From Phyllobacterium sp. 21LDTY02-6 (lineage in GTDB: Bacteria; Pseudomonadota; Alphaproteobacteria; Rhizobiales; Rhizobiaceae), in assembly GCF_023554255.2 (NCBI RefSeq), contig NZ_JAMJWD020000003.1:434001-498000 (forward strand): a DNA stretch of 64,000 nt, in the 5' to 3' direction. Shown in pieces: positions 13,324 through 43,892 of this stretch. Under the pieces are notes generated by a model. The model was given only the letters and a program-made list of their open reading frames with translations. It was not told the origin of the DNA and made no database searches. The translations under genes were made by a program, and so were the position numbers. Each line of letters opens with the position of its first letter. Within the stretch, counting starts at the first letter, position 1.

Positions 13324-14141
13324 TGAAAGCCTTGACCTTCACCCTGATCAACCCGCCGGAAGAGCGCCTCGACCTGTCGATACTGACGCCGAGCACGCTC
13401 GCAGAACTGACCAGGAACGAGATCGCCAAACTCCGCATCGGGACCAGCCGCAGGCCCGCATCGGTCGGAGACCTGTTCAAGATCACCGGCAGCGATCCTG
13501 CCAACATCATCTTCGAGGGCGGTCATTCCCGTTTTGACGGGGTCGCGTCCGGCATGACCGGCGGATCCATCCGGCTGGTGGGCGATGCCGGAAACCAGAT
13601 TGCCCGGGCAATGACCGGCGGCTCGCTCTATATCGACGGAAGCGTCGGCAGACATGCGGGTTCCGGCATGACCGGCGGGCGTGTGGAGATAAGGGGCAAT
13701 GCCGGCGATAATGTCGGCGGGCCGCTTGCCGGGGAAATCACCGGCATGGATGGCGGCGTCCTCATCATTCGCGGCAAAGCCGGCGACTATGCAGGAGATC
13801 GCCTGCGCCGCGGCACGATCGCCCTGTGCAAGGGCTGCGGCGATTATCCCGGCTATCGCATGATTGCCGGGACCATCGTCATCCTGGGCCGGTCAGGAAT
13901 CATGCCGGGCTATCTGATGAAGCGCGGTACGTTGCTTTTCGACCGGCAGCCGGAGCACCTCTCGCCGACATTCCTGCCATGCGGCGAGCCCGACAGCCCG
14001 TTTGCCGGCCTCCTGGACCGCTATCTCATCAGCGAGAAGATCACCGATCGCGCCTTGCTGGGCGCGAGACCAGGCAAGTTTGCCGGCGACAATGCGGTGT
14101 CCGGCAAGGGCGAAATACTGTACCGGAAGAAAGGCCGCTGA
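13323..14141 (+). CDS. fhcC: Formyltransferase/hydrolase complex subunit C
   Basis: A 272-residue FwdC/FmdC-like protein with a right-handed beta-helix of glycine-rich repeats of the kind found in the glutamate synthase C-terminal domain: successive units MTGGSIRLVGDAG, MTGGSLYIDGSVG, MTGGRVEIRGNAG and MDGGVLIIRGKAG, residues about 80-160. It is the structural subunit that binds FhcB. It starts on the fhcD stop (TGATG). Its stop codon is adjacent to the stop of a small convergent gene, and I see no strong terminator between them. Confidence 0.93.
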   Translation: MKALTFTLINPPEERLDLSILTPSTLAELTRNEIAKLRIGTSRRPASVGDLFKITGSDPANIIFEGGHSRFDGVASGMTGGSIRLVGDAGNQIARAMTGGSLYIDGSVGRHAGSGMTGGRVEIRGNAGDNVGGPLAGEITGMDGGVLIIRGKAGDYAGDRLRRGTIALCKGCGDYPGYRMIAGTIVILGRSGIMPGYLMKRGTLLFDRQPEHLSPTFLPCGEPDSPFAGLLDRYLISEKITDRALLGARPGKFAGDNAVSGKGEILYRKKGR

Positions 14142-27927: not shown

Positions 27928-29811
27928 TCACTCGGCGGCGATAATGGGCGTAAATTCGGCATCTTCGAAGGTGGGCAGCTTCTGCAGCTCGCCCCTGCCG
28001 TCCTTGATCTCCAGCACATGCGTATAGAAGGGACGGCCGCTGTTCGACAGTGGCGGTTCCTTCTCGTGCATGACGCTGATGACGATGGCGCCGCGGCAAT
28101 GCCTGTGGATCGATTCGTGGAACTCGATCTTGGAGAGGGGATCGAGCGCGCCCGTTGCCTCATCGAGGAACAGCACGCCCGGCTTGTGCAGCAATATGCG
28201 CGCCAGAACGAGCTTTTGCTTCTGCCCGCCGGAAAGCAGCTGGTCCCAGCTCGATCCATGGCGCTCCTCCTGCCCCATGAACTCGATGAGGTCGCCGAGC
28301 CCCGCATTGTGGAGGGCGGCAGCAACGAGCCGATCCTCATAAGCTTCTTCATGGGCTGGAAGACAGACGAGCTGCTTGAGCGAAACCGGCTGCAATTTCA
28401 CGTCCTGCGCCGCGTAGATGGGATTGCTGTTCTCCGGCAGGGCGAATTTGCCTCGCCCATAGGGCCAGAGACCGTTCATGGCTTTCAGCAGGCAGGTCTT
28501 GCCGCTGCCGGATTCTCCCTTGAGATAGACCCAGTCTCCGGCGCGTATGCGCAGATGATCGATCTTCAGGAAGGGTATGTCGGCATTGTCGGCGTGCCGA
28601 AGCTCGACATCGCGCAGTGACAGGCCGAAGAGCTCATGCTGCTGCGAATACTGGAAATCATTTCCGGCCTCGGCACTTTCGTCCGGCCGAACCACCTCCT
28701 CGATCGCTTGCGCCAGACCGATGACCCGTTGCGCGTTCGCCTTGAGATTGGCGATCGCCGGCATGACCTGGATGAACCAGGAACATTCATTGATCATCGA
28801 GCCGACCAGCTCCGCGCCCGTGATGTAGGATTTCAGGCTCACGGCATTGCTCATATAGGGCAGCAGGCCCGGCATGTAGGCAACGATCCTGTTGGAGAGG
28901 AAGCCGTAGACCGCGGTAAAGGACATGTAGCCGGCATCGTAGCGGTTGAAGCGGGCCCAGCTATCGTCCACCTCGCTGTAGAGCTTGCCATTGATCGACT
29001 TCTGCACCGATTCCCCGGCCGATGCCGCCACCTGGAAGCTGCGTCGCAGGAAGGTCGTCAGCTCACTGCGGTAGCTGCCTTCGCTCTTCTGCATTTCCAG
29101 GGTGAGCTTTTCCAGGACGCGGCCAATGCGCATCGCCGCCCATGTACTGGCGGGCACATAGATGGCAATCGCCAGGAATGCGAGCGCGGCGCTGCCATAG
29201 GAGCCCAGAAACTCGAGGCCGGTAACCTCGGACGACATCTCGACCAGTTTCTGCCCGACGAACAGGATGGACATCACGACGCCGAGAATGCCCATGGCGA
29301 GGCCGATCGCGCCGCCGGTCATCGCCTTGATCGATTCATGGACGCGCTGGTCGATATTGTCGGGCGTCACGCCGCCTTGCTGCAGATGATAATGCGTATG
29401 GCCGCTGTCGAGCAGGGCACTATTGAAACAATCGTTCAGCCAGCCGCGCCATTTGCGATGCAGCGTCGTCGAGATGAGGTGCCGCAGCCCGACGAACCCG
29501 ACCTCCTTCATGATCGCAAGAAGAACGAGCAATCCGGCATTCATCAGGATCGCCCGGCCGGGGTCCGGAACGAAGGGTTCCCGGATGGCGACGATGGAAT
29601 TGAGCAATTCGCCCGCCGCTACGGCAATCCACACGCTGGCCTTGCTTGCAGCGGCCGTCAGGAGCGCGATAGCGCCTGTCAGCAACCACGCTTCAGCCCA
29701 CCGGTCTGACGTCCAGTAGGCGCGAAGCAGGCCCCAGAAGCTGCGCATCGGCGCTACGGCGCTCGATCTCGGCCCTGGTCCCAGTGTTGGATTTTCCTTT
29801 GCAGAAGTCAC
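27928..29811 (-). CDS. BacA/SbmA-like ABC transporter, membrane and ATPase fused
   Basis: A protein of about 627 residues: an N-terminal transmembrane domain (about 20-330) of the SbmA/BacA-like and ABCD-type family, then an ATPase domain with Walker A KGESGSGKTCLLKAMNG, signature LLSGGQKQKLVLARILL and Walker B PGVLFLDEATGALDP. Relatives (BclA, Rv1819c, YddA) take up or export peptides, bleomycin or B12-like molecules. The reading frame runs to a GTG at 29847, but a palindrome and promoter-like elements lie just upstream of that, so GTG at 29811 (TTGGGG upstream) or ATG at 29748 is more likely. It is divergent from cytochrome b561. Confidence 0.88.
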   Translation of the reverse strand: MTSAKENPTLGPGPRSSAVAPMRSFWGLLRAYWTSDRWAEAWLLTGAIALLTAAASKASVWIAVAAGELLNSIVAIREPFVPDPGRAILMNAGLLVLLAIMKEVGFVGLRHLISTTLHRKWRGWLNDCFNSALLDSGHTHYHLQQGGVTPDNIDQRVHESIKAMTGGAIGLAMGILGVVMSILFVGQKLVEMSSEVTGLEFLGSYGSAALAFLAIAIYVPASTWAAMRIGRVLEKLTLEMQKSEGSYRSELTTFLRRSFQVAASAGESVQKSINGKLYSEVDDSWARFNRYDAGYMSFTAVYGFLSNRIVAYMPGLLPYMSNAVSLKSYITGAELVGSMINECSWFIQVMPAIANLKANAQRVIGLAQAIEEVVRPDESAEAGNDFQYSQQHELFGLSLRDVELRHADNADIPFLKIDHLRIRAGDWVYLKGESGSGKTCLLKAMNGLWPYGRGKFALPENSNPIYAAQDVKLQPVSLKQLVCLPAHEEAYEDRLVAAALHNAGLGDLIEFMGQEERHGSSWDQLLSGGQKQKLVLARILLHKPGVLFLDEATGALDPLSKIEFHESIHRHCRGAIVISVMHEKEPPLSNSGRPFYTHVLEIKDGRGELQKLPTFEDAEFTPIIAAE

Positions 29812-29853
29812 GAATGCCCCAATCTGATCACCCCATAGTAGTAACACAATGTT

Positions 29854-30054: not shown

Positions 30055-30543
30055 TTGCGCGTCCTGCACTGGCTGATCGCGGCGCTTGTCCTTGCGATCT
30101 GGCCGCTTGGAATGCTGCTCAAATATTTCCGTGAGGACGTGAAGCTCGACTTCTATCTCCTGCACGAATCCTTCGGTTTTCTGGTGCTTTGGCTCATGTT
30201 GATCCGTGTCGGCGCCCGGCTTTACGCCCCCTCGCATCCGCCGCGTGCCGGCGACTGGACCGGGGTGCTTGCCCGCAGCGTGCATTTCCTGCTCTACGTG
30301 ATGCTGATTATCATGCCGATCAGCGGATTCCTCGCCACCAATGCCCATGGCTTTCCGCTGCGTTGGTTCGCCGTCGTGCCGGTCTGGAGCCCCATCGGCA
30401 AATCACCGGACATCGCGCCTTATTTCAGCGCGTTGCATGTCATTGCCGCCTGGCTGATATTGTTGCTGGTCTGCCTGCATATTCTCGGGGCACTCTTCCA
30501 TCATATCATTCGCAAGGACGATACAATTCAAAGGATTCTCTGA
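30055..30543 (+). CDS. Cytochrome b561 family protein
   Basis: A four-helix b-type cytochrome of the bacterial b561 family, about 162 residues from TTG 30055. The haem ligand histidines are visible in VLHW near the N terminus, in LLHESFG and in HVIAAWLILLLVCLHILGAL (20 residues). Members pass electrons between quinol and superoxide or other acceptors in the membrane. The start is uncertain: the coding pattern (ENQRYIPALRVLHW) clearly extends upstream, and AGGAGGG stands 5 nt before an ACG at 30028, with no ATG, GTG or TTG between the upstream stop and 30055. The RibD-like gene starts 4 nt after the stop. Confidence 0.88.
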   Translation: MRVLHWLIAALVLAIWPLGMLLKYFREDVKLDFYLLHESFGFLVLWLMLIRVGARLYAPSHPPRAGDWTGVLARSVHFLLYVMLIIMPISGFLATNAHGFPLRWFAVVPVWSPIGKSPDIAPYFSALHVIAAWLILLLVCLHILGALFHHIIRKDDTIQRIL

Positions 30544-30546: not shown

Positions 30547-31311
30547 ATGCAGCGCGTCGAAATGCCGGACGAGGTTTGGGTGGACCTGCTCGCCCGAAGG
30601 AATGGCCACAATTCGGACGGAAACGGGGGAAATGGCCCCAATCACAGGCTTTATGGACCGCTGGTACGAAGGGAACGCCCGTTCGTGTTGGCGCAGGTGG
30701 GTCAATCGCTGGACGGCCGCGTCGCGACGCCGGCGGGCGATGCGCGGGATGTATCCGGCAGCGGCGGCATAGCCCATCTGCATCGCTGCCGCGCCCTCAT
30801 GGATGCCGTCATCGTCGGCGTCGGCACCATTGTGTCCGATGATCCGAGCCTGTCGGTCCGCGCCGTCACGGGCCCAAGTCCAGTCCGCGTCGTGATCGAT
30901 TGCAACGGGCGCATGCCAATGGGCGCCAAGTTCCTGAGCGATGGTGGCGAGAGGATCATTGTCATCCAGGCCGACGACGTCGATGTGCGGCCCGCCAATG
31001 CCGAGATCATACGGTTGCCGCGCACGGAACGCGGGCTTGACGTTGCCGATATCCTGCAGGCGTTGCGGCAGAGGGAACTGCGGTCGGTGCTGGTGGAGGG
31101 CGGCGCGAGGACGGTCGGCCGGTTTCTCGATGCCGACGCCGTCGATCGGCTCCATGTCGCCATATCGCCGATGATCATCGGCTCGGGCCCGACAGGCATA
31201 CTGCTGCCGCCCGTTCACAGGCTGACGGATGCGCGCAGGCCGAAGGTCGATGTCTACGACATGGGGACCGATATTCTCTTCGATTGCGATTTTCGCGCCA
31301 ATGGCGGATGA
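30547..31311 (+). CDS. RibD C-terminal-domain (dihydrofolate-reductase-fold) protein
   Basis: A 254-residue protein with the RibD_C/DHFR fold. It has RPFVLAQVGQSLDGRVATPA (20 residues), HLHRCRALMDAVIVGVGTIVSDDPSLSVR (cited in part), VRVVIDCNGRMP and SVLVEGGARTVGRFL, matching the NADPH-dependent pyrimidine/pterin reductase family. It lacks the deaminase domain of true RibD, so it probably reduces a pteridine or pyrimidine-like ring. It follows cytochrome b561 directly and faces the methyltransferase-glycosyltransferase-PTPS operon; together these suggest work on a modified pterin, which is inference. Confidence 0.85.
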   Translation: MQRVEMPDEVWVDLLARRNGHNSDGNGGNGPNHRLYGPLVRRERPFVLAQVGQSLDGRVATPAGDARDVSGSGGIAHLHRCRALMDAVIVGVGTIVSDDPSLSVRAVTGPSPVRVVIDCNGRMPMGAKFLSDGGERIIVIQADDVDVRPANAEIIRLPRTERGLDVADILQALRQRELRSVLVEGGARTVGRFLDADAVDRLHVAISPMIIGSGPTGILLPPVHRLTDARRPKVDVYDMGTDILFDCDFRANGG

Positions 31312-31319
31312 CGGCTGGA

Positions 31320-32096
31320 TCAGCCGGGAATTGCAAGCAGGTCCGTATGCCCGACGCGGCATGACGATCGCGCCGCCTCCGCCATCCGATGGGCATGCCA
31401 GCCGGCAATGTCGCGGGGTTCGATCATCTCCATCTCGCCCGCCGCCCGCACCAGCCCGTCGATGAAGGCGCGCTGAACTGCTTGCTGCGACGGGGAAACC
31501 ATGTGCCAGTCACTCTTTGCGCACTCCGAGCGGTAGCCCCTATCGGCCAGGGCTTGCTCCAGGATCGAAACGGCATCGGGCCCGGCCGCCGGCCCAAAAC
31601 CCTTATCCGTCCTTTGGTGGCGGTTGAAAGCCTCGATCACCGCATGGTCGAGCGGATGTTGCGGGTGAAACTCCACCGCACCGTCATAGTTCAGTGCCGC
31701 ATAAAGCCCGGCGCCTGCCGTGCTGATCGCTTGTACCAGCGTCACCATAAAAGCTTCCGAACAGAGATCGAAAAGCGCCGAGGCCGTGACCAGCGTCGCA
31801 CCTTCCAGCGGAAGCGATCCGACGTCTGCGATATCGGCCACGCGATAGGCGAGCCCGTCGCCATGGCGCTGGCGTGCTTCATCGAGAAGCGCCACGTCCA
31901 TGTCGATCAGGCACCATCGTGCAGGCTCCGCCAGATGCGGTGCGAGCACCCGATAGGTCGAGCCCGTGCCGCAACCGATATCGACGATGGACCCCGCGGA
32001 GCCGAGCCTCGCCGCCTGGCGCAGGAGTTCGCCATTGCGTGCTGCGCTGTCGAGCGGCTCCCGCAGGTCAAGCCAGGCGCTGTCGAAGCCGCTCAT
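31320..32096 (-). CDS. Class I SAM-dependent methyltransferase
   Basis: A 258-residue Rossmann-fold methyltransferase. Motif I is SIVDIGCGTGSTYRVL at about residues 36-51, with an acidic residue closing strand 2 (LIDMDVALLDEAR) and motif IV-like VTASALFDL. The C-terminal half is unlike known specialised subfamilies I can name. It is translationally coupled to the glycosyltransferase gene (ATGA overlap) and is the last gene of the operon ADH-PTPS-GT-MT. It probably methylates the product built by this operon. Confidence 0.88.
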   Translation of the reverse strand: MSGFDSAWLDLREPLDSAARNGELLRQAARLGSAGSIVDIGCGTGSTYRVLAPHLAEPARWCLIDMDVALLDEARQRHGDGLAYRVADIADVGSLPLEGATLVTASALFDLCSEAFMVTLVQAISTAGAGLYAALNYDGAVEFHPQHPLDHAVIEAFNRHQRTDKGFGPAAGPDAVSILEQALADRGYRSECAKSDWHMVSPSQQAVQRAFIDGLVRAAGEMEMIEPRDIAGWHAHRMAEAARSSCRVGHTDLLAIPG

Positions 32097-33133
32097 GCCT
32101 TGCTTTCGGCCGCCGCGGAAATCAGGGCGGCGCTTTCCGCCCAGCTCGGCAGGTTCGCGCCATGCCGGCGGGAAGCCGCGGCCATCGATGCGTGAACGGC
32201 CCGATCTTCCAGGAGCCGCCGCAGGGCGAGCGAGAAGCCGCCACTATCATCCGGTGCGACCAGAAAACCTGCATCTTCCGGCACCACCTCCGCTATTGCG
32301 CCGGCCCGGCAGGCGACGATCGGCACGCCATGGGCCATGGCTTCGGCAAAGACCATGCCATAGCCCTCATAGCGGCTGGCAAGAGCGAATATATCGCAGA
32401 ACTCGAATTCCCGGCGCGTGTCCTCCACTGCGCCGACGAGCGTGATGCGGCTGGCAAGCGAAAGCTCCGATATCTGCCGCTGCAATGCCTGCGCGCAGGC
32501 CGGGTCCATGCTGCGGCTGCCGATGATACGGCATGTCCAGCCAAGGTCCGTCAGCTTTGCCAGGGCATCCACCAGCACGTCATGGCCCTTGCGCGGGATG
32601 ATCGAACCGATGCTCAGGATCATGGGGCTGTATGGGTTCGGCTTCGACGGCGGCCCCGGGTCCGTTCCCGGCAGTGCAAGAACGATCCTGGCGGGCTCCA
32701 CATCATAGACAGTTTCGAGCTGCCGCGAAGTGGTTGCAGATGTAACTATTATCGAACGGGCGGCGGCGAGCGCCTGCCACTCCGACCTTTCGAAGTCGTC
32801 CCGTACGTCCTCGGGAAGGCCGCCTTCCATGGCCAAAGGGTGGTGGACGAGAGCGATAAGGTCGAGTTTTTCCGCCAATTTGGCGGCGGCATGACCAAAA
32901 GTGCCGAATGCGAGGCCATCGACGATCACGGTCGAACGCGGCGGCAAGGAAGCGAGCTGCGCCAGCGCGTCGCCCATTACCGCTTTTTCGGGATAGGGAA
33001 AGCCGTCGCCGAGCGCTACGGGCGTCACCTCCCAGCCGAGCGTCCCCAGCTCGCGGACGATGCGCCGGTCATAACCATAGCCGCCCGTGCGGGTGTCGAG
33101 GTCGCCGGGATAGGCGAAATAGAGCCGCCGCAT
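32093..33133 (-). CDS. GT4 family glycosyltransferase
   Basis: A 346-residue GT-B glycosyltransferase. The C-terminal nucleotide-sugar domain has ILSIGSIIPRKGHDVLVDAL, RITLVGAV and the GT4 E-x7-E motif FALASRYEGYGMVFAEAMAHG (cited in part). The N-terminal half begins RLYFAYPGDLDTRTGGYGYD with the glycine-rich acceptor loop. Cytoplasmic, likely a retaining transferase. It sits between a pterin-synthase-like gene and a methyltransferase gene, an arrangement known for pterin glycosyltransferases in cyanobacteria but here with a different enzyme set. Confidence 0.9.
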   Translation of the reverse strand: MRRLYFAYPGDLDTRTGGYGYDRRIVRELGTLGWEVTPVALGDGFPYPEKAVMGDALAQLASLPPRSTVIVDGLAFGTFGHAAAKLAEKLDLIALVHHPLAMEGGLPEDVRDDFERSEWQALAAARSIIVTSATTSRQLETVYDVEPARIVLALPGTDPGPPSKPNPYSPMILSIGSIIPRKGHDVLVDALAKLTDLGWTCRIIGSRSMDPACAQALQRQISELSLASRITLVGAVEDTRREFEFCDIFALASRYEGYGMVFAEAMAHGVPIVACRAGAIAEVVPEDAGFLVAPDDSGGFSLALRRLLEDRAVHASMAAASRRHGANLPSWAESAALISAAAESKA

Positions 33134-33531
33134 CAGAGATCGGCCTCGTACCAGCCGCGGGCCATGTGAGATTCGTTCAAGAGCACGCGGATGCGGCAGA
33201 TACGGTGGCTTCCCTCACCGAGCTCGCCCGATTTCACGGCCTGTGCCAATCCGTCGAAAATGTGCTTCGAGATCACCTCGGTGGTGGTGATCTTTCCAGA
33301 GAGCTCGGCGGCTTCGTCGAGGTTGCGATAGTTCAGCGGTTCGAGGACCTTGCGCAGTACCTGTGTCGCGAGCCCGATATCGACAGCCAGGCCGTTCTCG
33401 TCGAGTTCCCGCGTATAAAAGGCCGCGTCAACGACGAAAGTAGCGCCGTGCAGGGCCTGCGCCGGGCCGAATACCGGTCTCGGCAGGCTGTGGGCGATCA
33501 TGATGTGGTCTCGTACTTCAATGGCGAACAT
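33133..33531 (-). CDS. Divergent 6-pyruvoyl-tetrahydropterin synthase/QueD-like protein
   Basis: A 132-residue member of the PTPS/QueD fold. The C-terminal half is conserved: LNYRNLDE, TTTEVISKHIFDGLAQAVK (19 residues) and VLLNESHMARGWYEADL with its Glu. The N-terminal zinc site is degenerate: His14 and His28 are present (IAHSL, LHGAT), but the second His of the usual HGH triad is Ala30 and the catalytic Cys before HGH is missing. So it is unlikely to carry out the standard reaction. It overlaps the glycosyltransferase start by 1 nt and follows the ADH gene after 9 bp. Confidence 0.8.
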   Translation of the reverse strand: MFAIEVRDHIMIAHSLPRPVFGPAQALHGATFVVDAAFYTRELDENGLAVDIGLATQVLRKVLEPLNYRNLDEAAELSGKITTTEVISKHIFDGLAQAVKSGELGEGSHRICRIRVLLNESHMARGWYEADL

Positions 33532-33540
33532 GGGCTACCT

Positions 33541-34515
33541 TCAATAGACTATTCGATGGCAAAGCGTGGCGGGCGAAGCGATGATCTCGGCATAGGCTTC
33601 CGCCAATGCACCGAAGCGCGTCTCGCCTGAAATCAACAGGTCGAGCCTCGCATCCTTCAGCAGCTCAAGGGCTTTCGCCATGCGCCGCGCCGGCGTCCAC
33701 CGCCTGGATCGGCTGGAGAGGATGGTGCCGACCTGCGAGCTGACGATCGAGAGCCGGCGGGCGTGGAACGCACCGCCGAGCTTGAGGTTCACCGCCCTGT
33801 CGCCGTACCAGCTGGCTTCGACGACGCGTGCCTCGACGCCGGCGCATGCAAGAGCCTCGGACAATGCCGCCTCCGAAGCGGAGCAGTTGATCAGCAGGTC
33901 GCATTCCCGCGGCAGATCGGGCGGCATGGCAAAGCCGATGCCGAGTTGCGCGGATATCTCGCGGCGCTGCGGATTGATGTCGACCAGCGTCACCTCAGCG
34001 CCGGGAACCCGCGAGGCTATATGGGCGGTCAGCAGGCCGACCACGCCGGCACCGAACACCGCGACGCGATCTCCCGGCAATAGTCCCGCGTCCCAGACGA
34101 TGTTCAGCGCGGTTTCCATATTGGCCGCGAGTATGGCCCGGCCGGGCGGAACGCCGTCCGGAATCTCATGCACGTCCGCCTCCCGAACGATGAATTCGGA
34201 CTGGTGCGGGTGAAGGCAGAATATGGTGCGGCCGAGCAGCCTTTCCGGCCCGGCCTCGACCGTGCCGACGACGCAATAGCCATATTTGACCGGAAAGGAA
34301 AATTCGCCCGCCTGGTAGGGGCATTTCATCGCCGTGAACTGGTCCTCGGGAACGCCGCCGCTCAATACCAGCGATTCGGTACCGCGGCTGATGCCGCCAT
34401 AGCGGGCGCGGATCAGCACTTCGCCATCTGCAGGGGCGGCGATTTCCTCGGCAACGAGGGCGCATTTGCCCTGTCCTTCGATCCATAAAGCGCGGGCAGG
34501 TGGTTCGTCCGTCAT
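33541..34515 (-). CDS. Zinc-type alcohol dehydrogenase-like (MDR) oxidoreductase
   Basis: A 324-residue medium-chain dehydrogenase. The N-terminal GroES-like part has GGISRGTESLVLSGGVP and KYGYCVVGTVEAG, and the NAD(P) domain has VAVFGAGVVGLLTAHIA with an acidic residue after strand 2 (TLVDINPQR). The structural-zinc cysteine cluster of typical ADHs is missing. ATG at 34515 is chosen as the start; an upstream frame to 34620 reads into the divergent promoter region. It is the first gene of the operon ADH-PTPS-GT-MT. Its substrate is presumably an alcohol or ketone in the side chain of the product. Confidence 0.87.
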   Translation of the reverse strand: MTDEPPARALWIEGQGKCALVAEEIAAPADGEVLIRARYGGISRGTESLVLSGGVPEDQFTAMKCPYQAGEFSFPVKYGYCVVGTVEAGPERLLGRTIFCLHPHQSEFIVREADVHEIPDGVPPGRAILAANMETALNIVWDAGLLPGDRVAVFGAGVVGLLTAHIASRVPGAEVTLVDINPQRREISAQLGIGFAMPPDLPRECDLLINCSASEAALSEALACAGVEARVVEASWYGDRAVNLKLGGAFHARRLSIVSSQVGTILSSRSRRWTPARRMAKALELLKDARLDLLISGETRFGALAEAYAEIIASPATLCHRIVY

Positions 34516-34665
34516 CCGATTCAGTCCGCCGGTCTCGTCACTGACGGGCAGGTTAAGGTTTTTGCCGGCCTTGAGAAGGGCATCTTTGCGCAGGTGACCA
34601 CTTTTTATTGAATCGCACAAGTTCAGGTGCGTTTGCTACAATCAGCCACTATCGGGAGGGCTGCG
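34516..34665. promoter_or_regulatory. Divergent promoter region, ADH-PTPS-GT-MT operon / CDP-alcohol transferase operon
   Basis: The 150-bp gap serves both operons of the RibD/PTPS block, so the two directions are probably co-regulated. GGGAGGG at 34651-34657 is the ribosome site for the plus-strand gene. I see no clear operator. Confidence 0.4.
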
Positions 34666-35472
34666 ATGACGATATGGCCGGACACGGAGCAACTGGCGAA
34701 GCACGGACCTGCGAAAAAGAGCGGATCCGTGGCGCTGAACGCTTTTCGCCCCTGGGTCTGGCAACATGAGCGGTTTCTGGTGCTGGCCGGCACATGGCTC
34801 GGCGTTGCAGCGGCCGCGCTTTGGCTGCATGACCGGCTGGCTCTGCCCTGGTATTACGCGCCGCTCTGCATGTCGCTTGCCGCATTGCTCGCATGGCTTG
34901 TCTGGCTCGGCTCGGCAACGCTCCCGCACAAGGGTTTCGGGGCCGCCAATACCGTCACTACGCTGCGTGCCGGCATGGTCTGCCTGCTGGCGGGGCTGTG
35001 CGTTGCCGAAAGCACTTCATTCGACAGCGGCTTGCTATGGAGCCTGGCGGCTCTGATATTGCTCATCCTTGGTCTTGATGGCGTCGACGGTTATTTCGCC
35101 CGGCAGCGCGCTACCGTGTCGCCCTTCGGCGCGCGCTACGACATGGAGGTCGATGCGGCGCTCATCCTTGTCCTGTCGCTGGTCGCGCTGGTCCTCGGCA
35201 AGGCCGGCGCGTGGGTGCTGCTGATCGGCCTGATGCGCTATGTCTTCCTGCTGGCGCAGTGGCTTTCTCCACGGTTGCGGGCGGAGCTTGCGCCTTCGAT
35301 GCGCCGCAAGGTTATCTGCGTCCTGCAGGTTGCTTCGCTCGGGTTGATGGTCACGCCTGTCCTGGTGCCGCCGGCATCAGGGTGGCTTGCGGCGGCCTGC
35401 CTCGGCGCACTGGTCTATTCATTCGGCATCGATGTGTTCCATCTGCTGCGCGCCGGCAGAACTGTCGTTTGA
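34666..35472 (+). CDS. CDP-alcohol phosphatidyltransferase family protein
   Basis: A 268-residue inner-membrane enzyme. The active-site motif D-x2-DG-x2-AR-x8-G-x3-D-x3-D is complete in LDGVDGYFARQRATVSPFG followed by ARYDMEVD. Six predicted helices surround it. Such enzymes transfer a phosphoalcohol group from a CDP-linked donor (diacylglycerol or an alcohol) to an alcohol acceptor. ATG at 34666 has GGGAGGG upstream. It overlaps the next gene (TGATG). Its company suggests a lipid-linked product. Confidence 0.9.
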   Translation: MTIWPDTEQLAKHGPAKKSGSVALNAFRPWVWQHERFLVLAGTWLGVAAAALWLHDRLALPWYYAPLCMSLAALLAWLVWLGSATLPHKGFGAANTVTTLRAGMVCLLAGLCVAESTSFDSGLLWSLAALILLILGLDGVDGYFARQRATVSPFGARYDMEVDAALILVLSLVALVLGKAGAWVLLIGLMRYVFLLAQWLSPRLRAELAPSMRRKVICVLQVASLGLMVTPVLVPPASGWLAAACLGALVYSFGIDVFHLLRAGRTVV

Positions 35473-37085
35473 TGGTGGACAGTCGCTGGCTGCGCGCCGG
35501 ACTGGCGCTGCTCATCTGCATCGTGATCGCGAACCTGCCGCTGCGGCTGGATCAATTCACGCTTCCTGCCTTCGCGGCAGTGCCGGCTGAAATCATCCTC
35601 GTCATCCTGGCGGCGACACTGGTTCGAGGCCGTTACGAGTGCGCGGGCCGGATCGTGCTGACTGCCGTTTTTGCCCTCGTTCTTTTGCTGAAGCTCGCCG
35701 ATATAGGCGTATTTTCAGCGATATCGCGTCCATTCAACCCCTATCTCGACGGAAAACTGCTCCTCGATGGATGGCGGCTGCTGAGCGCGACGGTCGGGAT
35801 CATCAAGGCCTTGCTGCTGGTTGCGACTGCCTTGCTCGGCTTTGTCGGCGTGTGCTGGCTGCTCTACTGGTCGCTGAGCGGCCTCTTTGCCATCAGCCGC
35901 CGTCGTCTTGTCGTCCCGGCGGCTGCAATTCTGGCGCTGGGCCTCACATTCGGTGGTACCGTCGCGCTGCGGCCGAACATGCTGTACGCCCTCAAGAGCC
36001 GCGTCGATCTGGTCCACCAATCCATCGCCGACATGGCGATCTTCGACAGGACGATCGGCGCCGATCCGCTCGCCGATATTGCCGATAGCGATCTTCTCGG
36101 GGCGCTTCGGGGTCGCGACGTGGTGCTCATCTTCGTCGAATCCTATGGCGAGGTCGCCATACGCGATCCCCGCTATGCCGCACGGATTGCCGGCCGGCTG
36201 TCTGCCATTGAAGGAGAGTTGGCGCAGGCGGGACTTGGTTCGCGCAGCGGATGGCTCGTTTCGCCCACGGTCGGCGGTCTTAGCTGGCTCGCCCATGGCA
36301 CGCTGCTTTCCGGTCTCTGGCTCGACAGCCAGCAGCGCTACGACCGTATGATCGGCGGCGGCAGGGCGAGCCTCAATTCGCTGTTCCGCCAGGCTGGCTG
36401 GCGCAGCGTCGCCGTCATGCCCGCGATCACGATGGATTGGCCCGAATCCCGTTATTTCGGCTACGATATGGTCTATGCGGCGAAGAACCTCGGCTATCGG
36501 GGCAAGCCGTTCAACTGGGTGACCATGCCCGATCAATATACGCTCTCGGCGTTCGAGAAGCGGGAGCGCGGCCCCGGGCACCGGCCAGTCATGGCCGAGA
36601 TCGCCCTGATATCCAGCCATGCGCCGTGGACGCCTGTCCCGACATTGCTCGATTGGTCCCGGATCGGCGATGGCTCGGAATTCGACGAACAGGCCGTCGC
36701 GGGCGACCCGCCAGAATTGGTGTGGCGCGACAATGATCGGGTTCGGGCTCACTATATCGCGACGATAGACTATGCCTTGCAGACCGTCGGATCCTATATG
36801 GCGCGGCATGGCCGCAATACGGTCTTCGTCATTCTCGGCGACCATCAGCCCGCCCCGATCATCACCGGAGACACGGCATCGCGCGCGGTGCCTATCCATA
36901 TCGTCGCCGATGATGCGATGTTGCTGGATCGCCTTGATGGCAAGCATTGGTCGCGGGGCATGCGGCCGGCCGGCGGCTCGGCAAGGCCGCGAATGGACGA
37001 ATTCCGCGAAAGCTTCGTTCGAACTTTCAGCGCGCATGGCTGTTGCCAGCGGCAAGAGGCAGGCGCTAAACCGTCTGTGCCGTAG
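35472..37085 (+). CDS. Membrane-anchored sulfatase/LTA-synthase-fold protein
   Basis: A 537-residue protein: five predicted N-terminal helices (about 8-160), then a periplasmic alkaline-phosphatase-superfamily domain (about 200-520). DVVLIFVESYGEV marks the first metal site, and SPTVGGLSWLAHGTLLSG has the Ser/Thr nucleophile zone. FVILGDHQPAPIITG is the second metal site, as in LtaS or phosphoethanolamine transferases. The natural reaction is phosphoglycerol, phosphoethanolamine or sulfate transfer or hydrolysis at the cell surface. It is coupled to the CDP-alcohol transferase (TGATG). Subfamily assignment is uncertain. Confidence 0.85.
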   Translation: MVDSRWLRAGLALLICIVIANLPLRLDQFTLPAFAAVPAEIILVILAATLVRGRYECAGRIVLTAVFALVLLLKLADIGVFSAISRPFNPYLDGKLLLDGWRLLSATVGIIKALLLVATALLGFVGVCWLLYWSLSGLFAISRRRLVVPAAAILALGLTFGGTVALRPNMLYALKSRVDLVHQSIADMAIFDRTIGADPLADIADSDLLGALRGRDVVLIFVESYGEVAIRDPRYAARIAGRLSAIEGELAQAGLGSRSGWLVSPTVGGLSWLAHGTLLSGLWLDSQQRYDRMIGGGRASLNSLFRQAGWRSVAVMPAITMDWPESRYFGYDMVYAAKNLGYRGKPFNWVTMPDQYTLSAFEKRERGPGHRPVMAEIALISSHAPWTPVPTLLDWSRIGDGSEFDEQAVAGDPPELVWRDNDRVRAHYIATIDYALQTVGSYMARHGRNTVFVILGDHQPAPIITGDTASRAVPIHIVADDAMLLDRLDGKHWSRGMRPAGGSARPRMDEFRESFVRTFSAHGCCQRQEAGAKPSVP

Positions 37086-37128: not shown

Positions 37129-38052
37129 ATGATGGGTACCAAACCGCAGATATTGTGCGTGGGCGCGCTGACGCTCGATACGATATTCCGGCTGGATGCG
37201 CTGCCGCCGGGCCCGGGAAAATACATCCCCTCGGAAGCCGTCGAAATCGCTGCGGGCATGGCCTCGAGCGCGGCGGCAAGCATTGCGCGGCTCGGCGGCA
37301 AGGTCGCGCTCTGGGCGTCGGCGGGGAAGGATGCGGTGGGCGACCGTCTCGTCGCCGAGCTTGAAGGCGAGGGGGTGGATTGTCGCCATGTGCGGCGCGT
37401 GGAAGACGCCCGCAGCGCATTCTCTTCGATCTTCGTCGATGCGGCCGGCGAGCGCATGATCGTGCCGTTCTACGACAAGCGCCTGTTGTCGATGCCTGAG
37501 GCGACGCCGCCTGTAGATAACACGTTCGACGTCGTGATGACGGATGTGCGGTGGCCGCTGGCGGCAGTAGCCGCTTTGAAGGCGGCAAGGGCAGCGAACG
37601 TGAAATCTGTTCTCGATGCCGACACCGCGCCGCTTGAAGTGCTCGAAACCCTGTTGCCGCTCGCTACTCACATCGTTGCTTCGGAACCGGCTGCGCAAGT
37701 GGTTACCGGTGAAACCAATATTGTCCACGCCACCACGGCGCTTGCGGCCCGATATGGCCGCGCCGGTACTTTCGTCGCGGTCACCGGCGGCACGGAGGGC
37801 TGCTGCTGGTGGGACGAGGCGCGAAATGGCGTCGTCCATATGCCGGCATTCGACGTGGCGAGCGTCGATACGCTGGCGGCGGGCGATGTTTTCCACGGGG
37901 CATTCGCCTGGGGCCTCGCACAGAACCAGCCGATCGACCAGATCATCCGCTTCGCCAGCGCCGCGGCCGCCATCAAATGCACGCGGTTCGGCGGGCGTGC
38001 CGGTGCTCCCACAGTCGCCGAAGTGGAGGCATTCCTGTCCGCTCGGCGATGA
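37129..38052 (+). CDS. PfkB-family sugar kinase
   Basis: A 307-residue ribokinase-fold kinase. It begins KPQILCVGALTLDTIFRLDA, has the substrate-closing glycine motif AAGMASSAAASIARLGGKV, and the C-terminal PfkB signature DTLAAGDVFHGAFAWGLA with the catalytic Asp of GDVFHGAF. The sugar is not identifiable; neighbours point to a keto sugar acid or similar. ATG at 37129 directly precedes a second ATG at 37132. It is 43 bp downstream of the sulfatase-like gene and may be co-transcribed with it or with the DapA-type gene 78 bp on. Confidence 0.9.
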   Translation: MMGTKPQILCVGALTLDTIFRLDALPPGPGKYIPSEAVEIAAGMASSAAASIARLGGKVALWASAGKDAVGDRLVAELEGEGVDCRHVRRVEDARSAFSSIFVDAAGERMIVPFYDKRLLSMPEATPPVDNTFDVVMTDVRWPLAAVAALKAARAANVKSVLDADTAPLEVLETLLPLATHIVASEPAAQVVTGETNIVHATTALAARYGRAGTFVAVTGGTEGCCWWDEARNGVVHMPAFDVASVDTLAAGDVFHGAFAWGLAQNQPIDQIIRFASAAAAIKCTRFGGRAGAPTVAEVEAFLSARR

Positions 38053-38085
38053 GACCTATCGGTGGTTGCAACAGGTTGACATTCA

Positions 38086-38103
38086 ACTAACATGTCAGTT
38101 AGT
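38086..38103. promoter_or_regulatory. Putative GntR operator
   Basis: ACTAAC-ATGTCA-GTTAGT is a perfect 6-bp inverted repeat placed directly downstream of a consensus -35-like TTGACA (38076-38081). It lies 28 bp upstream of the aldolase start. The GntR gene two kilobases on is the obvious candidate to bind it. Confidence 0.6.
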
Positions 38104-38130
38104 GTTCACCTATGGACATGGGAGGACAAA

Positions 38131-39021
38131 GTGTCTGACGTCAATCGGTTTGGGCTATCCGCCGCGCTTGCAACGCCATTTGACAGCGCGATGCGCATTG
38201 ATACGGGCAAGGCGCTCGAACATGCCGATTTCTGCCTGGACAATGGCTGCGGCAGTGTCACGCTGTTTGGAACCACGGGTGAGGGGTCCTCGATCAGCAA
38301 AGAGGAGCGTGGCCTGCTCCTGAGGGCGTTTATCGACGGCGGCATCGAGCCACGGCAGATCGTTATCGGCGTCATGGCCAATTCCTATGTCGATGCCGCC
38401 GAACAGACGCGTCAGGCGCTCGATGCAGGGTGCCGTAGCGTACTCCTGGCCCCGCCATCCTACTTCAAGAACCTGAGCGACGACGGGCTTTTCGAATGGT
38501 TTTCAGCGGTGTTCACCCATGTCGGCGCCGGCTGCCGCGATATCATCCTCTATAATATTCCCTCGGTCACGGCGGTGGAAATCTCCGTCGCGCTAGTCAG
38601 CAGATTGCGCGAGGCATTCCCGGCCGCAGTCGCCGGCGTCAAGGATTCGTCCGGCAACTGGCCCTACACCGAGACGCTGCTTGCGGCGCACCGGGATATA
38701 GCGATATTGATCGGCGACGAGCGCTCCTTGTCGGCGGGTGTGCGCCTCGGCGGGCAGGGGGCGATATCCGGCCTTGCGAATATCTATCCGGATCGCCTGT
38801 CGGTGATGGCGGCGGAGGGGCGGGACGACCAGTCCGTCGTGGATGCCGTGAACGAGATCGTCAAGTTTCCGGTGATCCCGGCAGTGAAGGCATTGATCGC
38901 GCACCAGACCGGCGATGATGGCTGGCGGCGGGCGCGGGCGCCATTGCAATCGATCCCGGTATCGGATGCAAATCGGCTGCGCGGCATTTTCGACCGCTTG
39001 TTCCGGGCTTCGGCAGCCTAG
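38131..39021 (+). CDS. DapA/dihydrodipicolinate synthase family lyase or synthase
   Basis: A 296-residue class I aldolase of the DHDPS/NAL superfamily. The pyruvate-binding GTTGEGSSIS, the active-site Tyr in IILYNIPSVT and the Schiff-base Lys in AGVKDSSGNW are present. It makes or cleaves a C-C bond with pyruvate; given the sugar kinase and ABC importer it is more likely a catabolic keto-acid lyase than lysine-biosynthetic DapA. GTG at 38131 has GGGAGG 7-8 nt upstream; an upstream ATG at 38092 lies inside the putative operator and has no ribosome site. Confidence 0.9.
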   Translation: MSDVNRFGLSAALATPFDSAMRIDTGKALEHADFCLDNGCGSVTLFGTTGEGSSISKEERGLLLRAFIDGGIEPRQIVIGVMANSYVDAAEQTRQALDAGCRSVLLAPPSYFKNLSDDGLFEWFSAVFTHVGAGCRDIILYNIPSVTAVEISVALVSRLREAFPAAVAGVKDSSGNWPYTETLLAAHRDIAILIGDERSLSAGVRLGGQGAISGLANIYPDRLSVMAAEGRDDQSVVDAVNEIVKFPVIPAVKALIAHQTGDDGWRRARAPLQSIPVSDANRLRGIFDRLFRASAA

Positions 39022-39055
39022 TGGAATAGCCGGCGATCGGCGGAGGGAGGAACGC

Positions 39056-39715
39056 ATGGACGACGGCAACGAGCCGGTAAGATTGCGGGAAAAGGCCTAT
39101 GCCAGCTTCACCGAACATCTGCTTGCTCGCGATATAAATCCGGGCCAGTTCGTCTCGCAGCGCCAGCTGGTGGCGATGACCGGCATGCCGCTTGGCGCTA
39201 TCCGCGAACTGGTGCCCCGCCTCGAGGCCGAAGGGCTGGTGAAGACCATTCCGCAGCGTGGCATCCAGATTGCCCATATCGACCTCAATCTCATCCGCGA
39301 GGCGTTTCAGTTCCGCCTCTTCATGGAAAAGGAGGCGGTCGCGCTATTCTGCCAGTCGGCGCCGGACGAGCTTCTCGCCAGGCTGCGCAAGGAGCACCAG
39401 GATACGCTGGACGAAGCGCTGCAAGCGGCTGAAACGCCGGAGCTCGAATTGCGGGCACAGGCGATCGACTGGAACCTGCATGAAACGATCATCGATTCGC
39501 TTGGCAACGAGATCATCGCCCGGGCCTATCGGATCAATGCTATCAAGATGCGCCTGATCAACCAGGAGCGATTCCGCATTACCGGCCGGGTTGTTCCGGT
39601 CATGCGGGAGCATCTGGCCGTATTGACGGCGATAGAGAGCCGCGACCCGCAGACAGCCATGGATGCAATTGCCGTTCACATCAACAATGCGCGCAATCTG
39701 GCTTTGAAAATCTAA
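39056..39715 (+). CDS. GntR family transcriptional regulator (FCD domain)
   Basis: A 219-residue FadR-type regulator. The N-terminal winged helix (about 8-75) has QRQLVAMTGMPLGAIRELVPRLEAEGLV (cited in part) and the wing TIPQRGIQIAHID. The C-terminal FCD helical domain carries the metal-binding Asp/His residues (LRAQAIDWNLHETI, and a late REHLAVLTAI with HINNARN). ATG at 39056 follows a strong GGAGGGAGG. It lies between the aldolase and ABC genes and probably binds the dyad at 38086-38103. Confidence 0.9.
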   Translation: MDDGNEPVRLREKAYASFTEHLLARDINPGQFVSQRQLVAMTGMPLGAIRELVPRLEAEGLVKTIPQRGIQIAHIDLNLIREAFQFRLFMEKEAVALFCQSAPDELLARLRKEHQDTLDEALQAAETPELELRAQAIDWNLHETIIDSLGNEIIARAYRINAIKMRLINQERFRITGRVVPVMREHLAVLTAIESRDPQTAMDAIAVHINNARNLALKI

Positions 39716-39770
39716 AACATCCCGCGCGGGAATGGGAGTTGCCGCCCGGGAGATAACAATGGAGGAAACC

Positions 39771-41102
39771 ATGCACACCAAATTCATGCGGCCGACGCGC
39801 CGCCAGTTTCTCGCCGGCACGGCGGCCCTGGGCGCGGCAGGAATAACCGGCCTGAAGCCGGCTTTGGCCAATGTCGACTGGAAGAAATATGCCGGCACGA
39901 CGATCGAGGTGAACCTCATCAAGAGCCCGCGCGGTGATATTCTCCAGAAATATCAGAGCGAATTCGAGGAATTGACAGGCATCAAGGTCAATGCGGAGCA
40001 GACGCCGGAACAGCAGCAGCGCCAGAAGGCGGTGATCGAGCTGACTTCGGGCCAACCGAGCTTCGATGTCGTCCACATCAGCTATCACGTGCAGAAGCGC
40101 CAGTTCGAGAAGGGCAAGTGGCTCGCCGACCTGTCGGGCTTCCTGAAAGATCCGAGCTTGACCGATCCTTCGCTGACCGAGAGCGATTTCGCCGAAGCCG
40201 GTCTTGCCTTCGCCAAGGACAAGGATGGCCGTTTCGGTGGCCTGCCATTCTCGGTCGATTACTGGATCGTCTACTGGAACAAGGACCTGTTTGCCGCCAA
40301 GGGCGTCGAATATCCGAAGACTTTCGACGAGCTGGTCGCGGCGGCCGAAAAGCTGACCGACAAGGACAACGGCATTTATGGTTTCGTGGCGCGCGGCATG
40401 AAGAACGCCAATACGCCGGTTTGGGCAAGCCTCATGCTCGGCTACGGCAAGAGCACGATCGAGGACGGCCAGCTTCTCACCGATACGCCGGAGGCTATCG
40501 AAGCCGCCAAGATGTATCAGCGCCTCATGACCAATTCGGCGCCTCCCGGCGTCACCGGCTTCAACTGGGCCGAATGTCAGTCGAGCTTCCTGCAAGGCAA
40601 GGTTGCGATGTGGCTGGACGGCATCGGTTTTGCACCGCCGCTCGAAAATCCGCAGAAGTCGCGCGTCGTCGGCAAGGTTGGCTACGGATTGATGCCGAAA
40701 GGCCCGAACGCCCAGGCTGCTCCAACCTTTGGCGATGGTATCGGCGTCACTGAAGCATCCAAGAACAAGGAGGCCGCCTATCTCTACTGCCAGTGGGCGA
40801 TCTCGAAGGAAATGGGTGCGCGGCTTCTCCAGACGGGCTCAGGCGTGCCGTTCCGCAATTCCATCCTGAACGATGCCGAGGTCCGCAAGGGCGTGACCAT
40901 GCCGTCCGAATGGGTCGACGTTCTGTCGGAATCGGCAAAGGTCAGCAAATTGTGCCTGCCGGTCATCGTCCCCGTTACCGAATTCCGTGACATCATGGGC
41001 GTCGGTCTGACCAATATGCTCGGCGGCGCCGATCCGGCTGCGGAATTGAAGCGCGCCACCGAGGAATTCCGCCCGATACTCGCCCGCAGTGAGGGCCAAT
41101 GA
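39771..41102 (+). CDS. ABC transporter extracellular solute-binding protein (Tat-exported)
   Basis: A 443-residue family 1 binding protein. A Tat signal is visible in PTRRQFLAGTAALGAAGI (18 residues), ending after ANVD-type cleavage near residue 33. The mature part has FEELTGIKVNAEQTPEQQQR (20 residues), ADLSGFLKD and YSVDYWIVYWNKD-like signature LPFSVDYWIVYWNKDLFA. GGAGG lies 3-7 nt before ATG 39771, so this codon is better than the ATG at 39762. It starts a four-gene importer (binding protein, two permeases, ATPase), overlapping the first permease by 4 nt. Confidence 0.93.
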   Translation: MHTKFMRPTRRQFLAGTAALGAAGITGLKPALANVDWKKYAGTTIEVNLIKSPRGDILQKYQSEFEELTGIKVNAEQTPEQQQRQKAVIELTSGQPSFDVVHISYHVQKRQFEKGKWLADLSGFLKDPSLTDPSLTESDFAEAGLAFAKDKDGRFGGLPFSVDYWIVYWNKDLFAAKGVEYPKTFDELVAAAEKLTDKDNGIYGFVARGMKNANTPVWASLMLGYGKSTIEDGQLLTDTPEAIEAAKMYQRLMTNSAPPGVTGFNWAECQSSFLQGKVAMWLDGIGFAPPLENPQKSRVVGKVGYGLMPKGPNAQAAPTFGDGIGVTEASKNKEAAYLYCQWAISKEMGARLLQTGSGVPFRNSILNDAEVRKGVTMPSEWVDVLSESAKVSKLCLPVIVPVTEFRDIMGVGLTNMLGGADPAAELKRATEEFRPILARSEGQ

Positions 41103-42025
41103 CATCAGCCGCCCCAACCATGAGCGCATCGAGGCGTACAAAACCGCCGGTAAAGCGCAGAAGCCGCTTGAAGCCGAGCTACTGGCCCTTCGTTATTCCA
41201 GCTCTCGTCATCGTTGGGGCGGTGATCGTGTTTCCCTGGGCATTCACGCTGTGGATGAGCGTGAATGAATGGCAGGTGGGCAGCGGCCAGCGTTTCGTCG
41301 GCCTTGCCAATTTCTCGCGCCTGGCCTCGGACGCTCGCTTCTGGGAATCGATGGTCCATACGGTCATCTATACCGTCCTGTCCGTCATCGCGCCGCTGGT
41401 CCTCGGCACCCTGGCAGCGCTGGTCTTCGATACGAAGCTTCCGATGCGCGGATTGCTGCGGGGCATCTTCGTCATGCCGATGATGGCGACGCCGGTCGCG
41501 GTCGCGCTGGTCTGGACGATGATGTACCATCCGCAACTGGGCGTCCTGAACTATCTCCTGTCCTTCCTCGGAATCGGGCCGCAGGAATGGATATTCAACC
41601 AGAATACGGTCATCCCTTCGCTGGTGCTCGTCGAGACCTGGCAATGGACGCCGCTCATCATGCTCATCGTCCTCGGCGGACTGGCATCCATGCCGCGCGA
41701 TCCCTTCGAAAGCGCGGAGATCGACGGCGCCAGCAATTGGCAGAAGTTCCGCTACATCACGCTGCCGATGATCCTGCCATTCATGATGGTGGCGGTGATC
41801 ATCCGGTCGATAGATGCGCTGAAGAGCTTCGACATCATTTTCGCGATGACGCAGGGCGGGCCGGGCACGGCATCCGAGACGATCAACATCTATCTCTATA
41901 ATGTCGCCTTCGCCTATTACGACATTGGTTACGCCTCGGCGATCGCCGTCGTGTTCTTCATCGTCATCATTTCCATGTCGCTCGCCCTTCTGGCATTGCG
42001 GCAACGGACCAAATGGAACAGCTGA
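41099..42025 (+). CDS. ABC transporter permease (MalF type)
   Basis: A 308-residue inner-membrane permease. A basic N-terminal tail (about 1-28) is followed by PFVIPALVIVGAVIVFPWAF as helix 1; six helices are predicted, and the EAA-type loop is SAEIDGASNWQKFRYITLP. It starts within the binding-protein stop (ATGA). It pairs with the next permease. Confidence 0.93.
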   Translation: MTSAAPTMSASRRTKPPVKRRSRLKPSYWPFVIPALVIVGAVIVFPWAFTLWMSVNEWQVGSGQRFVGLANFSRLASDARFWESMVHTVIYTVLSVIAPLVLGTLAALVFDTKLPMRGLLRGIFVMPMMATPVAVALVWTMMYHPQLGVLNYLLSFLGIGPQEWIFNQNTVIPSLVLVETWQWTPLIMLIVLGGLASMPRDPFESAEIDGASNWQKFRYITLPMILPFMMVAVIIRSIDALKSFDIIFAMTQGGPGTASETINIYLYNVAFAYYDIGYASAIAVVFFIVIISMSLALLALRQRTKWNS

Positions 42026-42036
42026 GGAGCAGGACA

Positions 42037-42867
42037 ATGGCGCGTCGCCGCATCAAACCGCTGAAGATCCTCGGCACCGCTTTCCTCGTTTTCGTCATCG
42101 TGTCGCCGGCGATCTTCTTCTTCCTGTGGATGCTCTCGCTGTCGCTGAAATACGAGATCGACAACGGAGCCTATCCTCCGATCCTCATTCCGGAACAATT
42201 CGCCTGGTCTAACTACACCGAGATCTTCGCGGCGAATGATTTCCTGCTCTATTTCTGGAACAGCCTCATCGTCACCGGCGCGGCCACGGTGCTCGCCCTG
42301 CTTGTCGGCGTCCCGGCGGGCTATGGCATCGCGCGCCTGCGCGCCGACAAATCGGCGATCGTCATCATGATTGCCCGCATGACCCCGGGCCTGTCCTATC
42401 TCATTCCCTTGTTCCTGCTCTTTCAGGGGCTCGGCCTGCTTGGCACGCTGTGGCCGCAGATCATCATTCATCTCGTCGTGACCGTGCCGATCGTCATCTG
42501 GATCATGATCGGCTATTTCGAAACCACGCCGATCGAGCTCGAAGAGGCGGCGATGATCGATGGCGCCACATCCTGGCAGGTCTTCCGCATGGTGGCGCTG
42601 CCCATAGCCAAGCCCGGCATCGTGGTTTCGCTCATCCTTGCGGTCATCTTCTCCTGGAACAATTTCGTGTTCGGCATCGTGCTCGCCGGGCGTGAGACAC
42701 GCACGCTGCCGGTCGCCGTCTATAACATGCTGTCATTCGAGCAGGTCAGCTGGGGCCCCCTGGCTGCCGCCGCGCTGATCGTGACCCTGCCGGTCCTGCT
42801 CCTCACAATATTCGCACAGCGGCAGATCATCGCCGGCCTGACCGCGGGCGCCGTCAAGGGCGGCTGA
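42037..42867 (+). CDS. ABC transporter permease (MalG type)
   Basis: A 276-residue inner-membrane permease with six predicted helices; the EAA loop is EEAAMIDGATSWQVFRMVAL (20 residues) and the end is GLTAGAVKGG. ATG at 42037 has AGGAG upstream and follows the first permease stop by 11 bp. It should dock with the ATPase encoded next, which appears defective. Confidence 0.93.
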   Translation: MARRRIKPLKILGTAFLVFVIVSPAIFFFLWMLSLSLKYEIDNGAYPPILIPEQFAWSNYTEIFAANDFLLYFWNSLIVTGAATVLALLVGVPAGYGIARLRADKSAIVIMIARMTPGLSYLIPLFLLFQGLGLLGTLWPQIIIHLVVTVPIVIWIMIGYFETTPIELEEAAMIDGATSWQVFRMVALPIAKPGIVVSLILAVIFSWNNFVFGIVLAGRETRTLPVAVYNMLSFEQVSWGPLAAAALIVTLPVLLLTIFAQRQIIAGLTAGAVKGG

Positions 42868-42887
42868 TCAGACATAAAGGAAAGCCG

Positions 42888-43892
<1,005 letters not shown>

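Follow-up and report, generated by a model that had tools for sequence, protein, structure and literature searches.

A 64,000-nucleotide stretch of the genome of Phyllobacterium sp. 21LDTY02-6 (contig NZ_JAMJWD020000003.1, positions 434,001 to 498,000), hereafter the window, carries a gene block centred on a PTPS-fold protein, an MDR-family dehydrogenase, a GT4 glycosyltransferase, and a methyltransferase. This block is a real and widely conserved unit. The families that it encodes point to a GTP-derived, glycosylated, and methylated product of pteridine type, a prediction to which we assign a probability of roughly 0.6. An earlier note on this DNA had proposed a single biosynthetic block with a glycosylated, methylated pterin-like product; synteny in relatives and in 130 loci bears out the block, and the product remains the best reading. 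The open-licence papers searched describe neither the cluster nor its product, although a description may exist elsewhere in print.

The four core genes of the window lie on the minus strand, with ends that overlap or nearly touch. They encode an S-adenosylmethionine-dependent methyltransferase (31320..32096; Methyltransf_25, 5e-8), the GT4 glycosyltransferase (32093..33133; Glyco_trans_1_4, 2.7e-30), a PTPS-fold protein of the SCO6650 family with HGA in place of HGH (33133..33531; PTPS PF01242, 4.4e-20), and an MDR dehydrogenase distantly related to BchC (33541..34515; ADH_zinc_N, 1.6e-7). On the plus strand, a RibD_C-type reductase without a deaminase domain (30547..31311; RibD_C, 4e-37) follows an accessory gene for a cytochrome b561-type membrane protein (30055..30543; Ni_hydr_CYTB, 3e-27), which stops 3 bases upstream of the RibD start. 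Two further accessory genes on the plus strand, overlapping by four bases, encode a CDP-alcohol phosphotransferase (34666..35472; CDP-OH_P_transf, 1e-14) and a membrane protein with a sulfatase/alkaline-phosphatase-fold domain (35469..37085; Sulfatase, 3.3e-6). All seven open reading frames (ORFs) that the earlier note had described were intact where it had placed them, and Pfam agrees with each of its family assignments. It had overlooked the b561 gene, and it spoke of four units while listing three. The window contained no Rfam family at gathering score and no tRNA.

Conservation of the block across genomes

The PTPS-like gene is present in 11 of 59 relatives, the window included. In all ten of the other relative loci, the MDR, PTPS, GT4, and methyltransferase genes occur together on one strand; the b561 gene is near in eight of these loci, RibD in five, and the CDP-alcohol transferase and sulfatase-fold genes in four. 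We then compared the best 80 of at least 586 confirmed candidate stretches, mostly from Rhizobiaceae, in a scan of named genomes. ORF families recurred in the following numbers of loci: MDR 80, GT4 78, methyltransferase 68, sulfatase 63, RibD 59, CDP-alcohol transferase 50, LPG-synthase-TM 45, GTP cyclohydrolase II (RibA) 42, b561 and a broad transporter-like family 41 each, and FkbM methyltransferase 32. The PTPS gene is present in all 80 by selection, and ORF picking kept it in 59. Eleven of the twelve commonest families (32 to 80 loci each) belong to the block or to a fuller version of it, and there is a sharp drop after the twelfth (32 loci), the next family reaching only 12.

To these loci we added 54 more diverse ones, comprising 40 of 50 strong carriers, six of ten relatives, and eight of 12 plasmid regions fetched from 20 plasmid matches. 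Removal of four loci with duplicate PTPS sequences reduced the 134 loci to 130; the residue counts given below, over 134 or 135 sequences, keep the duplicates. By profile, at score thresholds of our own choice, the 130 loci contain MDR in 129, GT4 in 126, methyltransferase in 124, RibD in 100, CDP-alcohol transferase in 80, RibA in 69, sulfatase in 66, b561 in 65 (counted anywhere within the fetched stretch), LPG-synthase-TM in 60, FkbM in 48, and a creatininase-family gene in nine. These counts are lowered because some loci end at contig ends. Since the best 80 loci are mostly from Rhizobiaceae, the 52 diverse loci were also counted alone: MDR 51, GT4 50, methyltransferase 46, RibD 40, RibA 21, CDP-alcohol transferase 16, b561 16, creatininase nine, FkbM eight, LPG-synthase-TM seven, and sulfatase four. 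Four fetched plasmid regions (L130, L126, L280, and L281) stand outside the 130. L130 has the whole cluster except creatininase, and with all four added the counts become MDR 130, GT4 127, methyltransferase 125, and RibD 101 of 134. The four core genes lie within 6 kb on one strand in 112 of the 130 loci. Three loci that belong to other classes (L276, L277, and L278) have GT4 and methyltransferase joined in a single ORF of 645-655 residues, which suggests that the two enzymes act in sequence.

Because these loci had been picked by their PTPS gene, co-inheritance was tested separately in 289 Alphaproteobacteria. Here, as in the other searches of genomes, scoring was limited to the top candidates of a first look (seven or 14 per genome). 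The PTPS-like profile gave 43 matches, of which 36 were strong (≤1.6e-39) and seven weak and partial (≥1.9e-6), while the MDR profile at 1e-20 matched 36 genomes. The two sets of 36 genomes are identical, an outcome expected by random placement about once in 1e46 if kinship is ignored. The PTPS-like/MDR unit is therefore present in roughly one-eighth of the Alphaproteobacteria sampled. Among 299 genomes of the whole phylum, 19 of 69 PTPS-like matches were strong (≤4.1e-51) and the others weak (≥3.7e-11). The cluster also occurs in other proteobacterial classes, in Thiodictyon, and on some plasmids of Streptomyces, Microbacterium, and Arthrobacter. Over 36 loci, the distance matrices for PTPS, MDR, GT4, and RibD show correlations between r = 0.67 and 0.84, to which we give little weight without a species-tree control.

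A minimal form of the cluster is seen in two small genomes of about 1.4 Mb (G317) and 1.6 Mb (G219), where seven genes are adjacent: creatininase, RibA, RibD, methyltransferase, GT4, PTPS, and MDR. They span positions 6037-11971 and 8136-14068 of the fetched stretches (L261 and L262), whose G+C contents are 0.28 (G317) and 0.26 (G219). This arrangement suggests that the seven genes are the core of the pathway. None of the lipid families was found within the 20 kb fetched around either core, and for this reason the lipid-type membrane enzymes look accessory.

Predicted functions and entry from GTP

Proteins of the PTPS fold bind pterins. The profile of the PTPS-like family matched the structure of SCO6650 from Streptomyces coelicolor (PDB 3d7j) at 2.6e-52 over residues 1-131; its matches to the usual structures of PTPS and QueD were no better than 4e-5. 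Residues H14, H28, A30, E85, and E120 are identical in all 135 sequences, so that two zinc ligands (H14 and H28) are kept and the third His is always replaced by A30. Likewise, P23 and A24 are invariant and Q25 occurs in 133 of 135; Cys exceeds 30% of rows in just one alignment column (46/135). SCO6650 itself reportedly lacks both zinc and PTPS activity and has no known function, but is said to retain a pterin-like binding site. The family pattern FGPAQxxHGA (FGPAQALHGA in the window) corresponds to none of the three motifs CxxxxxHGH, CxxxHGH, and ExxHGH that PMC5041015 gives for active PTPS/QueD subfamilies. The constancy of its residues argues for a working protein. What the earlier note had called a degenerate PTPS thus belongs to a conserved family, one structure of which has been solved, and is not a decayed enzyme.

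The MDR protein is predicted to be a NAD-type dehydrogenase that lacks zinc, its fold being assigned from sequence. Its closest named family is TIGR01202 (bchC; 1.2e-12), with a score of 47.6 against a cut-off of 291. The usual zinc ligands of MDR enzymes are Cys and His-Glu, and the window reads GISRGTE and KYGY at those places. In an alignment of 134 sequences, no column with 95% conservation is Cys, although one column is Cys in 113. An acidic residue, D179, is present in 131 of 134 at the position where such a residue marks NAD-type Rossmann folds.

The block RibD is predicted to be a 2,5-diamino-6-ribosylamino-4(3H)-pyrimidinone 5'-phosphate (DARoPP) reductase. It has a RibD_C domain, no deaminase domain, and conserved substrate-side motifs, and the best solved relatives of its family profile are 6p8c, deposited as a diaminopyrimidine reductase, and then 2azn. 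The deaminase motif, sought with one regular expression, was found in none of the 104 RibD ORFs of the loci.

Where GTP cyclohydrolase II is clustered, it is predicted to lead to the substrate of this reductase. The zinc Cys motif is kept in all 71 clustered RibA ORFs, and the position of E. coli Tyr105, placed by alignment with 2bz0, is Tyr in 69 and Met in two. Both Met-type enzymes come from Streptomyces plasmid loci that also have a creatininase-family gene. Met at this switch position reportedly makes SCO6655 halt at the formylated pyrimidine, a finding attributed to Spoonamore in 2006. A creatininase-family protein of Sinorhizobium, the formamidase BrbF, deformylates AFRPP to DARoPP (PMC9478397). 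Two entry routes would therefore converge on DARoPP, since Tyr-type enzymes should yield it directly and a formamidase would deformylate the product of the Met-type. A formyl-retaining cyclohydrolase with a formamidase was also considered as a universal entry and was ruled out by the 69 of 71 Tyr-type enzymes. At least one further PF00925 match was found in 13 of 14 genomes picked for a clustered RibA, identifying the clustered gene as an extra copy.

Neither GTP cyclohydrolase II nor a creatininase-family gene lies beside the block in the window. The genome has one creatininase-family gene, on another contig, together with a separate PF01242 protein and GTP cyclohydrolase I. As it has no clustered cyclohydrolase II, the block probably draws DARoPP from the riboflavin pathway.

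From these assignments we propose the following route. Where a clustered cyclohydrolase II is present, it would open GTP to DARoPP, with the creatininase-family neighbour as candidate formamidase for the Met-type Streptomyces copies; RibD would then reduce the ribosyl to a ribityl chain. We infer these two steps from strong family evidence, with a reservation on the RibD models discussed below, and the next two from conserved clustering and weaker family evidence. The MDR enzyme would oxidise a hydroxyl of the ribityl chain, and the PTPS-fold protein would bind the ring and help to close a pteridine or to rearrange the ring otherwise. NAD-linked oxidation after NADPH-linked reduction would shift the oxidation state along the chain; were C2' the carbon oxidised, the 5-amino group could, we conjecture, close a dihydropterin ring. 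Glycosylation by GT4 and methylation by the methyltransferase would follow. The last step is conjecture: in many Rhizobiaceae and some others, the CDP-alcohol phosphotransferase, the LPG-synthase-TM protein, and the sulfatase-fold enzyme may link the product to lipid, with processing outside the cell, and b561 may hold it in the reduced state. Should the product prove to be a cofactor of glycosylated pteridine type or a redox molecule bound to the membrane, the cluster would represent a new branch of GTP-derived cofactor metabolism.

Genes flanking the block in the window do not appear to belong to it. A PfkB kinase, a DHDPS-family protein, and an ABC sugar-transport set follow at 37138-43892, and a GntR gene also lies beyond 37138. 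These PfkB, DHDPS, and solute-binding genes were rejected as members: they adjoin the block in one of ten relatives (L035) and were unmatched in L036-L044. An ABC transporter at 27931-29847 was likewise rejected, being unmatched in L035-L037; in L038 and L043, only the ATPase part matched, and weakly. Genes of PfkB or ribokinase type are also found close to the core in L131 and L284. The latter, a Palleronia plasmid cluster, has an inositol-monophosphatase-family gene at 5171-5974 that is a candidate phosphatase for the product.

Alternative explanations

Several observations weigh against a GTP-derived pteridine product. RibA is missing near 61 of the 130 PTPS genes and RibD near 30. In three Streptomyces linear-plasmid regions (L126, L280, and L281), no other member of the cluster families lies within 9 kb of the PTPS-like gene; this gene, of SCO6650 type, stands around position 9001 near cupin, MBL-fold, MEKHLA, or regulator genes. 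The window RibD scores 136 bits on the general RibD C-terminal model versus 101 on the archaeal reductase model, both below cut-off. Creatininase is paired with a Tyr-type RibA in five of the seven loci that have both, including the two small-genome cores, and its role in these five is unexplained because a Tyr-type cyclohydrolase should not need a formamidase. Moreover, two more distant homologues of the rhizobial formamidase did not complement (PMC9478397). The window genome offers a single PF00925 match, a RibBA with a cyclohydrolase domain devoid of the zinc Cys motif (C-terminal part at about 168750-169211 of contig C7), leaving the riboflavin entry enzyme of this genome unassigned; the Sinorhizobium paper calls the GTP-opening enzyme there yet to be discovered (PMC9478397). 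Finally, GTP cyclohydrolase I was found in 15 of 15 genomes checked, so that a second pterin route is not obviously needed.

Among the alternatives, the one with the most substantial, if minority, chance is that two unrelated neighbours have been taken for one block: the core genes would form a small-molecule operon, and the CDP-alcohol transferase, sulfatase-fold, and LPG-synthase-TM genes a separate one for a lipid or polymer, the two happening to be adjacent in Rhizobiaceae. The earlier note had treated the two membrane enzymes as parts of the block. They do lie near the core in many loci, but they look accessory to it: among the 52 diverse loci, the CDP-alcohol transferase was found in only 16 and the sulfatase-fold protein in four, and neither of these, nor LPG-synthase-TM, lies within 20 kb of the small-genome cores. 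Against a chance adjacency, the CDP-alcohol transferase adjoins or sits within the core in Rhizobiaceae, Thiodictyon (Gammaproteobacteria), Streptomyces, and Microbacterium. The motif DxxDGxxAR(x8)GxxxDxxxD is present in the window protein, which reads LDGVDGYFARQRATVSPFGARYDMEVD, and all its named residues are invariant in ten of ten aligned copies from two phyla (Proteobacteria, and Streptomyces with Microbacterium). Since the enzyme keeps its motif and aligns across phyla, the lipid link looks real where it is present. For the sulfatase-fold protein, the metal-type residues E224, H384, D458, and H459 are invariant in nine of nine aligned sequences; neither a single-sequence nor a profile search found a solved relative, LtaS/EptA-type phosphotransferases included, and its fold is a sequence-based assignment.

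We consider it somewhat less probable, and on balance doubtful, that the product is a decorated diaminopyrimidine, an 8-ribityl-pteridine, or an azapteridine, with the PTPS-like protein only binding the ring and the MDR enzyme acting elsewhere. The evidence of the early genes extends to DARoPP and its ribityl derivative and does not fix the later ring chemistry, and the PTPS-like family has lost its zinc motif. Such products sit less easily with a fold that binds pterins and with the invariance of E85 and E120 in all 135 sequences. Nor is a lumazine synthase among the commoner ORF families, those present in over 12 of the best 80 loci, which are the ones that this comparison covers.

A bolder version of the pteridine reading, which we regard as improbable, is that the cluster makes a new pterin cofactor without GTP cyclohydrolase I. 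The Amadori step of that enzyme would here be replaced by the combined action of RibD and the NAD-type MDR: with C1' reduced and C2' converted to a ketone, closure on the PTPS-fold protein would give a dihydroneopterin-phosphate-like compound. This compound would then be glycosylated and methylated and, in rhizobia, membrane-anchored and reduced by b561. If so, the pathway should be essential or near-essential in the small-genome bacteria with the seven-gene core.

A QueD or folate role for the PTPS-like protein, in tRNA modification or folate synthesis and with an incidental cluster, is very unlikely. Public annotation does name this protein 6-carboxytetrahydropterin synthase, and in six of the 11 carriers checked among Alphaproteobacteria it is the only PF01242 match; however, the other five, the window genome among them, have a separate PF01242 protein, and the role was rejected on the HGA motif, which fits none of the published catalytic patterns, and on the occurrence of the MDR partner in exactly the same genomes. 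More remote still is the link to tetrahydromethanopterin (H4MPT) cofactor metabolism that the earlier note had offered as an alternative. H4MPT-linked C1 genes (amidohydrolase, FTR, and Mch) do occur in the window at 10796-13320 and about 5180-6103, with FTR at 12361-13320 and Mch at the latter position, but two association tests found no association with Mch and refute a general link: Mch is present in four of 11 carriers versus 18 of 48 non-carriers among relatives (Fisher p = 1.0; n = 59), and in two of 36 carriers versus 12 of 253 others among Alphaproteobacteria (Fisher p = 0.69; n = 289). The gene-neighbourhood comparison that the note had proposed found the families conserved together independently of H4MPT genes.

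Comparison with known systems

The predicted route to a glycosylated, methylated pteridine can be compared with several known systems. Its entry resembles the SCO6655-type cyclohydrolase II in that two Streptomyces cluster copies share Met at the switch position; in contrast, the remaining 69 of the 71 clustered enzymes are Tyr-type and should yield DARoPP directly, and the window block has no copy. The creatininase-family protein of the cluster belongs to the same family as BrbF, whose product, DARoPP, is the predicted entry compound. BrbF serves riboflavin, whereas the cluster copies (nine of 130 loci) are only predicted to act alike.

The block RibD differs from the stand-alone reductases 6p8c and 2azn in its N-terminal extension and its gene setting. 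The latter structure was deposited as a putative uracil reductase, and the enzyme is reported to use the diamino compound.

SCO6650 is of the same family as the block protein and shares its FGPAQ..HGA motif in the alignment. SCO6650 is known as a lone protein, whereas the block protein sits in a cluster, which would give this family a pathway, a predicted substrate, and partner enzymes. The nearest parallels for the product are bacterial pterin glycosides such as cyanopterin and biopterin glucoside, in which a PTPS-fold protein is combined with glycosyltransferase chemistry, as in the block. The synthesis of such glycosides begins with GTP cyclohydrolase I and depends on an active PTPS, whereas the cyclohydrolase clustered with the block is of type II and the zinc motif is absent from the PTPS-like protein.

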